Source: Peterkaempfera bronchialis
Lineage (GTDB): Bacteria; Actinomycetota; Actinomycetes; Streptomycetales; Streptomycetaceae
NCBI RefSeq assembly: GCF_003258605.2
Contig: NZ_CP031264.1
Span: 4,960,001 to 5,024,000, forward strand
Direction: 5' to 3'
Length of the DNA: 64,000 nt
Numbering within the stretch: the first letter of the stretch is position 1; each line of letters starts with the position of its first letter. The notes beneath the pieces are model-generated. The model had not been told where the DNA came from. It saw only the letters and a program-made list of their open reading frames with translations, and made no database searches. A program made the position numbers and the translations under genes. Shown here piece by piece: positions 57,279 to 60,871 of the stretch.

Positions 57279-57589
57279 CCGGGCGCTGCTTTCAGACTCC
57301 GGCCCGCCCGGTTTCAGCGACCAGGTCGCAAAGTACCCAAAGACCGAGGCACAGCGTGGAGTGCTCCTGCGGGAGGTACCGCGCGGTTGAGGTCGGCGAC
57401 CGTGTGACCGTGCGCGAGGATCCGGGCGGCCGGGTGGAGCCCGGCTCGCCGCGCAGGTGCGCCCGGGCGGCGGGGATACCGCACCGGACGGTCCCCACGA
57501 GCGCGCCCGGCCTTGTGACTGCTCGGCCGGTTCAGCACGGTTCGGGGTCTGACGGCCGCAGTGGGCGTCCGGTTGCCCCGCCCAACGGC
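57279..57589. other. Intergenic region without recognised gene
   Basis: 311 bp between the convergent recX and rhodanese genes. I see no convincing gene, RNA or clear two-way terminator; short frames here are chance openings. Confidence 0.5.
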
Positions 57590-57985
57590 TTACGTCGGCG
57601 GGGTGACCGGGAGTCCGGCGGCGGACCATGCCTGGAAGCCGCCCTCCAGGTCGGTTGCCCGGTGCAGGCCGAGTTCCTGGAGGGAGACGGCGGCCAGTGA
57701 GGAGGCGTAGCCCTCGTTGCAGAGCACGATGATCCGCAGGTCGTGGTGGACGGCCTCCGGCAGTCGGTGGTCGCACTGCGGGTCGAGCCGCCATTCCAGC
57801 TCATTGCGTTCGACCACCAGGGCACCGGGGATGGTGCCGTCGCGGTCGCGCAGCGCGGCATAGCGGGTGTCGACCAGCAGCGCGCCCTGCCGGACGGCTT
57901 CGGCCGCCTGAGGTGGCGTCAGCCGGTCGAGGCGGGCGCGGGCCTCTGCCAGGGCCTGGTCGATGCTGCGTGGTGCGGCGGTCAC
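57590..57985 (-). CDS. Rhodanese-like sulfurtransferase
   Basis: 131 residues from GTG 57985. A single rhodanese domain: LVDTRYAALRDRDGTIPGALVVERNELEWRL and the active loop VLCNEGYASSLAAVSLQELG, with Cys followed by NEGYAS in place of the common CxxGxR loop. It would move sulfane sulfur. The GTG overlaps the stop of the cysteine dioxygenase gene, so the two are co-translated. Together they point to cysteine oxidation and handling of released sulfur. GAGGAG lies upstream. Confidence 0.9.
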   Translation of the reverse strand: MTAAPRSIDQALAEARARLDRLTPPQAAEAVRQGALLVDTRYAALRDRDGTIPGALVVERNELEWRLDPQCDHRLPEAVHHDLRIIVLCNEGYASSLAAVSLQELGLHRATDLEGGFQAWSAAGLPVTPPT

Positions 57986-58572
57986 GGCGCCCACTCCTCG
58001 GGTCCCTCGACAAGCTCCAGCCGGAGCACCCGGCCATGGCGGCTGTAGCGGCGCAGCAGGGGCAGCGGCGGATGGTAGACGTGCACCGACACCGCGTGCT
58101 CCTCCTGGGAGGCGTTGACCACCTGGTGGACGTGGCGGGGTCCGAAGGCCCGGCCCCGGCCCGCCGGCAGGTCGCGCTCGCGGTCGACTCCGTCCACCAG
58201 TTCCAGGGTGCGCCAGCCCTCGGTGGGCAGTTCCACGGCGATGGACTGCTCGGCCAGCCGTCCGGTCGCGGTGACGAAGGCGCCCCGGGAACCGCCGTGG
58301 TCGTGCCAGCCGGTCTCGGCGCCGGGTGGCCAGCCGATGATCCATGCCTCGCTGCCGCCCGGACCCTCCAGGGCGATCCAGGTCCGCTCCGCCGGGTCGA
58401 GCGGCAGCAGCGCCAGGGTGTCGGGGTCGGCGGCGGTGCGGTGGGCGAAGTCCAGCAGTTCGCTGAGGCCGGGGCCGTCGGGGGCCGGGTGGCCGGGGCG
58501 CGGCGGTGCGTCGGGGGTGGCCGGCGGCACGGGGGCCTCCGGGGTGGACGCGGGCGCGTCGGTGCGGGGCAA
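57982..58572 (-). CDS. Cysteine dioxygenase-like cupin protein
   Basis: 196 residues. The cupin metal ligands are seen in WHDHGGSRGAFVTATGRLAEQ (two His) and RHVHQVVNASQEEHAVSVHVY (third His). Cysteine dioxygenase turns cysteine into cysteine sulfinate with oxygen and Fe(II). An N-terminal Pro/Ala-rich region of about 40 residues precedes the domain. The annotated start is a TTG at 58572; no better start is obvious, so this end is uncertain. A cysteine-rich leader peptide ORF lies 166 nt upstream, and the rhodanese gene overlaps the stop (GTGA). Confidence 0.88.
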   Translation of the reverse strand: MPRTDAPASTPEAPVPPATPDAPPRPGHPAPDGPGLSELLDFAHRTAADPDTLALLPLDPAERTWIALEGPGGSEAWIIGWPPGAETGWHDHGGSRGAFVTATGRLAEQSIAVELPTEGWRTLELVDGVDRERDLPAGRGRAFGPRHVHQVVNASQEEHAVSVHVYHPPLPLLRRYSRHGRVLRLELVEGPEEWAP

Positions 58573-58738
58573 GGGGACCGTCCTGGGTGCGGCGGCGCCC
58601 GGTGGTGGGCGGCTGCGGCTGCGGGGATGCCCGGGGCCGGTCGGCTGTACCGGCGGGGCGGCGGCGCGGGGCGCGGTGGCGCGGACCGGATGCGTCGGGC
58701 GGCCGTACGGGGCCGGAGGGGTCCGCTAGCGGGGTGCT
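58573..58738 (-). promoter_or_regulatory. Probable attenuator leader of the cysteine dioxygenase operon
   Basis: 166 nt between the leader peptide stop and the dioxygenase start, almost entirely G and C with several stems possible. Expected to hold the alternative structures that respond to ribosome position on the Cys codons. I did not fold it. Confidence 0.4.
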
Positions 58739-58828
58739 TCAGACGGCGCAGCGACAACACAGGCAGCCGACGTACCGGACCGTGTCCAGGTGCGTGCGGC
58801 GGAAGAGCCTGAGGCCGAGGTGTCCCAC
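58739..58828 (-). CDS. Cysteine-rich leader peptide (attenuator uORF)
   Basis: 29 codons from GTG 58828 to TGA 58739, ending in GCLCCRCAV: four Cys among six residues (C-L-C-C-R-C) just before the stop, preceded by a basic stretch RLFRRTHLDTVRYV. TTCACT lies 6 nt before the GTG, so translation is probably leaderless. This is the form of the cysteine-responsive leader peptides described in mycobacteria and annotated as putative leader peptides in Streptomyces. Low charged tRNA-Cys would stall ribosomes on the Cys codons and alter expression of the cysteine dioxygenase and rhodanese genes downstream. Confidence 0.75.
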   Translation of the reverse strand: MGHLGLRLFRRTHLDTVRYVGCLCCRCAV

Positions 58829-59128
58829 GGGCGGAGTGAATCATGCGGGCTGCGGCTGGTCAAGCAGGCCGCCTCCGGGCACCGGGCCACCCGCCGCCGG
58901 GGCGAGGAGCAGGGCCGGAAAGCCGCTGGTGGGAGGGGTGTGGGGGGTGTGGGGGCGCGTACTGCTGTGGGGGCGCAGGGCCGGCGGCGGGCGCGGTCTG
59001 GGCGGGTGGTGTCCGGTGGGAGGCGCGCGGGTGGGGGTGTTGAGGCACGTACTGCTGGGGTGCGCAGGGGCGGCGAGGGCCGGGCTGGGACGCCGCTGGT
59101 GGTGGGTGGCGTGCGGATGGGGCGGGGT
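58829..59128. other. Gap between monooxygenase and leader peptide genes
   Basis: 300 bp, GC-rich. It holds the leader promoter at the left end and two imperfect direct copies of a block around CGTACTGCTG (about 58958-58980 and 59047-59075). No gene recognised. Confidence 0.5.
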
Positions 59129-60871
59129 TCAGGCGGTGGGTTCGGCGGTGGGGAGGGCGGCCGGGCCGCCTCGGGCGCGGTCGGCGAGGGCGTGCAGCTC
59201 CTCCGGTCGGCAGCCCTGCATGGTGCCGACCAGGTGCCCGTCCGGCCGGACCAGCAGCACGGTGTGGGCGGTCGCCCCGGCGTACACCTCGGCCACCACC
59301 ACCTCGGCCGGTACCGGCAGCGCGGCGGCGGTCTCGGCGAGCCGGGGCATCAGCCCGGCGCCGAGCCAGTGCTCGCTGGCCCACACCCCGGTGCCCGGGG
59401 CCACCAGGACCAGCAGGAAGCCGCGCCCCAGCCGTTCGTGCAGCCGGTGGTGCGAGCCGTCGGCGGCGATCACCGGTACGTCGGGGACGAGGACCCCGGG
59501 GGCGGTGGAGTCCATGCCCTGGGAGAGCGCGGTGCCGCGCCGCTCGCCCCGGGGTCCGGACGGCCCGCCCGGGTAGGCCGGCGGGCTGCCGAACCGTCCG
59601 GTGCCCAGCGCACCGTCGGCCAGCAGCGGGGCGTGCTTGCGGAAGGAGCCCGACAGCAGGTTGCGGCGGGCCTGCTCCCACCCCTTGACCGGCCGCAGCA
59701 GCGGCATGGCCTGGTCGACGGCGCGCAGCCGGGCGCCGACCGCGCCGCGCCGCTCGGCCTGGTAGGAGTCCAGCAGGGCGTCGTCGGCGTGGCGGTGCCA
59801 GACCAGGGCGAGCTTCCAGGCGAGGTTGGCGGCGTCGCGCAGCCCGTCGTCGAGGTTCTGCATGCCGAGCGCGCCGTGCAGGTGGGCGGCGTCCCCGGCG
59901 AGGAAGCAGCGTCCGGCGCGGAACCGTCCGGCCAGCCGCTGCTGGACGGTGTGGTCGGCGGCGGCCAGCAGGTCGTAGCGGGGGACCTCGCCGCACCAGC
60001 CGGCCAGGGTGGCCCGTACCCGGGAGACCAGGGTGTCGCCGGTGACGATGCCGGGCCAGGTGGCGTGCGGATCGACGGGTGCGGCGGGCGTGGGCCGCCC
60101 GGGCGGCAGCCGCCAGTCCAGCCGCCAGAGGCCGTCCGGCAGCGGGCGGGCGAGGGCTTCGCGGTCGCCGCGCCACGGGGGGTCGCGGTGCAGCCGGGCC
60201 TCGCCGGGGAAGGGCAGGTCGACCCGGAGGGTGGCGACCGCGTAGCGGTCCACGGCGGTGCGGCCGGGGAAGCGGATCCGCAGCAGCTTGCGGACGGTGG
60301 ACCGGGCGCCGTCGCAGCCCACCAGGTGGCTGCCGCGCCACCAGGTGGAGTGGCCGTTCTCGGTCTGCCGGGTGCGTACGCTCACCCCGTCGCCGTCCTG
60401 CTCCAGCTCCTCGACCCGCTGCCGGGCTACCAGCTCGATCAGCGGTTCGGCGCCGGCGGCGTCCCGCAGCCCGCGTTGCAGCCGGTGCTGGGGGAGGTGC
60501 AGCACGGGGGTGGCGGACAGGTCGAGGTGGAGCACCTCCTGGCGGCGGCGGAGTATGCGCCAGCTGTCCCAGGTGGCGCCGTCGGCGGTGGCCCGGGTGT
60601 AGCCGAGGCGGATCAGCTGGGCGGCGGTGTCGGGGCGCAGCACGGTGGTGCGGGGCGATTCGGGGGAGAGGCCGGGCCCGTCGTCCAGGACGATGCTGGG
60701 CACCTCGTGGCGGGCGAGGTCGAGCGCCAGGGCGAGGCCGACCGGGCCTGCCCCGACGATGATCACCGGGTCCACGGTGCGGCTCCGGGGAGTGCGGGGC
60801 GGGGGCGCGGAAGGCCCAGCCGACGGCGTGCCGGTCCGGTCGGTCGGGCGCTTCGCCTGCGTGCCCCGCAT
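59129..60871 (-). CDS. FAD-dependent aromatic monooxygenase (class A)
   Basis: 580 residues from ATG 60871. FAD-binding GxGxxG in PVIIVGAGPVGLALALDLARH, the DG motif in LVGCDGARSTVRKLL, and the GD motif in CFLAGDAAHLHGALGMQNLDDGLRDAANLAWKL; a thioredoxin-like C-terminal domain (FLLVLVAPGTGVWAS ... VLLVRPDGHLVGTMQG) as in PheA/TfdB and polyketide hydroxylases. It inserts oxygen into an aromatic ring using NAD(P)H. The promoter at 60888-60916 puts the transcript start about 10 nt before this ATG; the frame is open to 60949 but earlier starts would not be transcribed. It stands alone, so its substrate is unknown. Confidence 0.9.
   Translation of the reverse strand: MRGTQAKRPTDRTGTPSAGPSAPPPRTPRSRTVDPVIIVGAGPVGLALALDLARHEVPSIVLDDGPGLSPESPRTTVLRPDTAAQLIRLGYTRATADGATWDSWRILRRRQEVLHLDLSATPVLHLPQHRLQRGLRDAAGAEPLIELVARQRVEELEQDGDGVSVRTRQTENGHSTWWRGSHLVGCDGARSTVRKLLRIRFPGRTAVDRYAVATLRVDLPFPGEARLHRDPPWRGDREALARPLPDGLWRLDWRLPPGRPTPAAPVDPHATWPGIVTGDTLVSRVRATLAGWCGEVPRYDLLAAADHTVQQRLAGRFRAGRCFLAGDAAHLHGALGMQNLDDGLRDAANLAWKLALVWHRHADDALLDSYQAERRGAVGARLRAVDQAMPLLRPVKGWEQARRNLLSGSFRKHAPLLADGALGTGRFGSPPAYPGGPSGPRGERRGTALSQGMDSTAPGVLVPDVPVIAADGSHHRLHERLGRGFLLVLVAPGTGVWASEHWLGAGLMPRLAETAAALPVPAEVVVAEVYAGATAHTVLLVRPDGHLVGTMQGCRPEELHALADRARGGPAALPTAEPTA

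Follow-up and report, generated by a model that had tools for sequence, protein, structure and literature searches.

A putatively leaderless cysteine-codon leader peptide upstream of a cysteine dioxygenase-rhodanese operon in Peterkaempfera bronchialis and related actinobacteria

Described cysteine leaders and the Peterkaempfera locus

Leaderless poly-Cys attenuators of the Ms5788A type were reportedly described in mycobacteria by Canestrari et al. in 2020. Mycobacterial leaderless cysteine attenuators have been tested experimentally, and their sequestered Shine-Dalgarno (SD) sequence is released when a ribosome occupies the Cys codons (PMC9031893, PMC9094748, PMC13236596). Cys leader peptides were noted in 2005 before the cys operons of Mycobacterium and Propionibacterium and before cbs of Bifidobacterium (PMC1262725). 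The available part of that source describes short ORFs with Cys codons near the stop and no terminator, as at the present locus, and biosynthetic targets; it holds no Streptomyces or cysteine dioxygenase (CDO) case. Streptomyces lividans, of the same bacterial family as the CDO leaders described here, carries leaderless leader peptides including a Cys-ended one before metNIQ, and no CDO leader is listed among them (PMC8079986 Table 4).

The locus lies on the minus strand of a 64,000-nucleotide stretch (the window) of the complete 7.09 Mb genome of Peterkaempfera bronchialis. Its features are collected in Table 1, together with the second CDO of the same genome.

Table 1. Features of the CDO-rhodanese locus (window coordinates) and position of the second CDO
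Feature	Position	Strand	Remarks
-35 hexamer TTGACC	58858..58863	-	From the sequence; exactly 17 nt upstream of TTCACT; unmentioned in the sequence-only reading
-10 hexamer TTCACT	58835..58840	-	From the sequence; 6 nt 5' of GTG
Leader-peptide ORF MGHLGLRLFRRTHLDTVRYVGCLCCRCAV	58739..58828	-	29 aa; GTG start, TGA stop; Cys codons 22, 24, 25, 27; C-terminus GCLCCRCAV
Spacer, leader to CDO	58573..58738	-	166 nt; contains the CDO ribosome-binding site
CDO Shine-Dalgarno AGGACGG	58578..58584	-	Kept ahead of the CDO start in relatives
Cysteine dioxygenase type I (CDO)	57982..58572	-	SCO5772 orthologue; TTG start; Pfam PF05995, E 3e-36
Rhodanese-domain protein	57590..57985	-	Pfam PF00581, E 7e-14; GTGA overlap of its start with the CDO stop
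Second CDO	L002 / G000:C1:2441412-2442011		TTGACA-17-TCTCCT-6-ATG, then leader MSVRTASRSLHVELRRAASALCCPRACCL

The 29-codon Cys-rich ORF and the TTCACT before its GTG agree in coordinates and sequence with the sequence-only reading. Because the -10 hexamer sits so close to the start codon, the transcript would be expected to begin on that codon or right beside it, and from the promoter spacing in all relatives we infer a leaderless transcript. The CDO resembles the cysteine dioxygenases 8qfl and 8qfr of the PDB (E 5e-11). Its start is probably the TTG at 58572, judged by the SD AGGACGG, found at the same place in relatives; the alternative is a GTG at 58530 with the SD GGAGG.

Both strands of the 64 kb window were searched for short ORFs with at least four Cys in the last 10 codons, and the leader ORF alone was found. 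In order-2 Markov windows, 0.2 such Cys-ended ORFs were expected, and 0 with a promoter. No intrinsic terminator was found between leader and CDO (57500-59200 scanned), so the locus lacks the defining element of a classical transcription attenuator. A scan with Rfam covariance models gave no riboswitch or leader family; one sub-threshold chance match to a miRNA fell outside the region.

Conservation and family of the leader

The regions upstream of orthologous CDO genes came from 38 named contigs plus 60 stretches belonging to further genomes, some genomes being represented twice. Among 99 loci, only L007 and L084 lacked a Cys-ended leader with this promoter arrangement, which answers the check proposed in the sequence-only reading, namely to look for the leader before other dioxygenase operons. 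That reading had called the ORF a leaderless Cys leader of the CDO-rhodanese operon and had held that non-conserved Cys codons would speak against it; the leader is conserved and the relatives do keep their Cys codons. The -35 element TTGAC stands 17-18 nt from the -10 element in nearly all relatives, and the -10 element stands 6-7 nt from the start codon. An Actinospica locus also has a Cys leader before CDO. The leader is not a chance ORF, because a Cys-ended leader with this promoter arrangement stands before nearly every orthologous CDO and a divergent one before nearly every copy of the second CDO.

In most Streptomyces the CDO leader is MTDTDVRLWRRVHMDLVRYAGCVCRPSC, and in Actinacidiphila it is of the type ending in RRVHLDLLRYAGCVCTAAR. 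Leaders of the window type were found in Peterkaempfera, Kitasatospora and one Streptacidiphilus, and the closest named relative among the loci compared is Peterkaempfera griseoplana (L003). Other Streptacidiphilus have Cys-containing CDO leaders that look unrelated. The orthologous leaders share the core RRxHxDxVRYxGC at the amino-acid level. UGU made up 47% of Cys codons in CDO leaders versus 16% in the window's GC-frame ORFs, a comparison whose Fisher p should be read as indicative only, since the leaders are interrelated.

Two Streptomyces-type orthologues, MTDTDVRLWRRVHMDLVRYAGCVCRPSC (37.1 bits) and MTDTELRLVRRVHLDLVRYAGCVCRPSC (28.0 bits), matched NF042934 (cis_reg_atten, putative leader peptide) above its cut-off of 27. 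Searched against NCBIfam and Pfam, the window leader had no match; it was called too divergent to score against NF042934. With NF042933 (leader_Ms5788A, cut-off 45) the orthologues reached only 18-19 bits and the window copy gave no match. The CDO leader shares with the attenuator class a conserved cluster of Cys codons close to its stop, and it is of a known kind, the leaderless cysteine attenuators, because its Streptomyces orthologues match an NCBI leader-peptide family. The class is already known and the catabolic CDO target is unusual. Literature searches found no report of this class at both cysteine dioxygenases, nor of an SD complement in the last codons; the support for novelty is weak because subscription papers were mostly outside these searches.

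The P. bronchialis genome holds about nine further cis_reg_atten leaders (L101-L109), seven of them above the cut-off. The genes behind them, mostly sulfur-related, encode a sulfite reductase, a CysM-type synthase, a CysA-type rhodanese, TauD, a luciferase-like monooxygenase, a 2OG oxygenase, an acyl-CoA-dehydrogenase-like protein and solute-binding proteins. The targets of these sister leaders are mostly in sulfur acquisition and cysteine synthesis, and CDO is the odd, catabolic one.

Leader-SD pairing and the modelled ribosome

In the Streptomyces orthologues, the leader closes with the codons CCG UCC UGC (P-S-C), which are complementary to the CDO SD AGGACGG. The pairing probability of the SD was near 0.87 at leader nucleotides +12 to +18 from the first terminal Cys codon (Cys1). 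Compensatory changes were seen, with the leader end UCC CGU accompanying the SD GGGACGG and UCC AGC accompanying UGGACGG. The best SD duplex fell in the Cys-to-stop zone, 17% of the length, in 72% of 54 Streptomyces-type loci, and 36 of the 54 did better than shuffled SDs (p<=0.05). A candidate anti-SD, CGUCC just before Cys1, was rejected; partition functions put the anti-SD after Cys1.

The ribosome was modelled as an unpaired RNA stretch. With the ribosome at Cys2, at Cys3 or at the stop codon, SD accessibility rose (Wilcoxon p between 1e-8 and 1e-10), and placing it on early leader codons brought no gain. The p-values, here and for the pairing, are optimistic because the loci are phylogenetically related. 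At Cys1, a ribosome with its footprint edge at A+11 left the anti-SD free (0.11 to 0.15), and a ribosome at the stop codon opened the site (0.30). A Cys1 stall freed the SD only if the footprint extended to A+15 or beyond. Given the complementarity between leader end and SD, ribosome-free RNA is predicted to be off by default, with the site exposed by a ribosome at Cys2, Cys3 or the stop.

We consider it fairly likely that the CDO leader belongs to the actinobacterial class of leaderless Cys leaders and acts as a translational attenuator in which the ribosome mediates the response to cysteine, switching expression on when cysteine is short. A ribosome would initiate at the GTG at the 5' end of the mRNA and go on to read the Cys codons. 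In RNA free of ribosomes the CDO SD would be masked, in the Streptomyces orthologues by CCGUCCU within the P-S-C codons that close the leader ORF. With Cys-tRNA scarce, the ribosome would dwell on the Cys cluster and hold the mask open, and CDO and the coupled rhodanese would be translated. The operon would then be wired like sulfur-acquisition genes, on at low cysteine, though CDO consumes cysteine.

Such a leader would resemble the mycobacterial Ms5788A type in its leaderless start (taken here from promoter spacing), its C-terminal Cys codons and its place before sulfur-metabolism genes and, in the Streptomyces orthologues, in a sequestered SD that a modelled ribosome at Cys2 or Cys3 opens. 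Unlike that type, its target degrades cysteine. The position of the anti-SD also differs: it lies after Cys1/Cys2 and up to the stop in Streptomyces, versus inside the Cys run in the Ms5788A type, where, in the mycobacterial loci compared, CUGUUG of the Cys run can itself pair with CAACAGGAG at the SD.

This position bears on the sign of the switch, which the sequence-only reading had proposed to be reversed, with the operon on at high cysteine. In an inverted or biphasic switch, ribosomes that complete the leader would turn CDO on and ribosomes held at Cys1 would turn it off. Under cysteine starvation, stopping or rescue at Cys1 would leave the distal anti-SD to mask the SD, and with cysteine present the leader end would be covered and the SD free. 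We regard this as unlikely. The modelled Cys1 ribosome at A+11 does miss the anti-SD, which reaches the stop codon, and in four of the mycobacterial Ms5788A-type loci (L121-L124) accessibility increased with a stall at Cys1 and little or not at all with a ribosome on the stop codon. The footprint result, however, reverses at A+15 or more, and partial starvation should split the dwell among Cys1, Cys2 and Cys3, so that opening would still grow as cysteine drops. By this reasoning, the sign would invert only if ribosomes were held or rescued at Cys1.

The P-S-C anti-SD is absent from the window clade, in which SD-leader pairing was significant in 1 of 5 loci and the spacer is long (150-185 nt) and C-rich. 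With the ribosome model, SD accessibility in this clade was slightly lowered (n=5, not significant), and a scan of ribosome positions gave no consistent SD opening. The leader is nearly invariant there at the nucleotide level. A consensus fold of seven sequences predicted a self-folded leader, in which the first third of the ORF pairs with the Cys codons and the leader's 5' GGGAC forms a closing helix with bases just 3' of the SD; it is without covariation support because nearly all its pairs are invariant. From its orthology, the window copy may work by the same principle as the Streptomyces orthologues. In the Actinacidiphila-type clade, SD-leader pairing was significant in 0 of 13 loci. At loci of this type (L016-L034 type) the CDO SD lies inside a small local hairpin, AGGGU-GGUN-ACCCU, also found as CGGGU-GGUG-ACCCG.

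The second CDO, published expression and the sign of control

The second CDO of the same genome is 36% identical to the first. In its leader, UGUCCCCGCG pairs with the SD region CGCGAGGACA at all but one position. In 29 of 30 loci of this gene (paralogue B), a leader that ends in a Cys cluster and has this promoter geometry was present. Pairing of the SD with the Cys zone was significant in only 5 of 29 loci, with L183 as an example (GUCCCUG with CAGGGAC); the modelled ribosome raised SD accessibility with p about 0.01. Both CDO paralogues of nearly all sampled Streptomycetaceae carry Cys-codon leaders, so cysteine breakdown appears to be grouped with cysteine synthesis and sulfur scavenging under sensing by ribosomes.

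The paralogue-B leaders are highly divergent, with little in common outside the Cys cluster, and the rest of the peptide drifts freely. The feature common to CDO leaders is their Cys codons, not a fixed peptide. A role of the ORF product as a small trans-acting protein, and not as a sensor, is very improbable: the amino-acid conservation of the orthologues' core would fit such a protein, but sharing almost only a Cys cluster among paralogue-B leaders would not, nor would an ORF end that is complementary to the downstream SD.

Following Dominy et al. (2006), SCO3035 is taken to be the second CDO of S. coelicolor. SCO5772 is annotated as a putative cysteine dioxygenase (PMC3087709). In RNA-seq of S. 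coelicolor treated with H2O2, SCO5772 was up 8.0-fold and SCO3035 up 6.5-fold (PMC4991794 Table 1), in the same list as cysN-D-C-H-I, cysA, cysM and metNIQ (PMC4991794). This co-induction with cysteine-biosynthesis genes, together with the SD-leader complementarity, favours the ordinary sign, on at cysteine shortage; an induction at high cysteine is disfavoured by the SD-covering leader end in Streptomyces and by the joint response of both CDO genes to H2O2.

The H2O2 response was seen at the mRNA level and depended on HbpS-SenS-SenR (PMC4991794). Since SenR binds the SCO6102 promoter, it could act on all of these genes, and the response could be the work of a transcription factor. Control might then be mainly transcriptional, by promoter factors such as SenR, GlnR or NdgR or by Rho termination within the spacer, and the leader would set no more than basal expression. 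The CDO orthologue of S. venezuelae appears in a glnR-related gene list (PMC3087709), and the long, C-rich spacer of the window clade would also fit. We hold this to be quite unlikely, since it leaves unexplained the conserved Cys codons, the conserved leader-promoter distance and the compensatory changes between SD and leader.

In the feather-degrading Streptomyces sp. SCUT-3, cdo1 was up 50-fold and cdo2 up 8-fold in feather medium (PMC7181669), which is rich in cystine yet differs in much else. Together with the catabolic role of CDO, this induction speaks for the inverted switch. Some room is left for reversed or biphasic logic, because a Cys1 ribosome leaves the SD masked, keratin raises both CDO genes and the window clade is without the pairing. 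If that sign were true, one leader family would be used with both signs, a rare case, since it would do the reverse for biosynthesis genes. With the favoured ordinary sign, a cell short of cysteine would make an enzyme that destroys cysteine, and a new role of CDO would be needed, in sulfite production, redox or sulfur recycling.

The metNIQ leader of S. lividans (metL), MSTTSDRTPATEATTTPGARCMCRRMCAF, was interpreted as methionine-dependent (PMC8079986). Its terminal Cys cluster, together with the joint induction of metNIQ and the cys genes in S. coelicolor (PMC4991794), suggests that it may be a cysteine leader.
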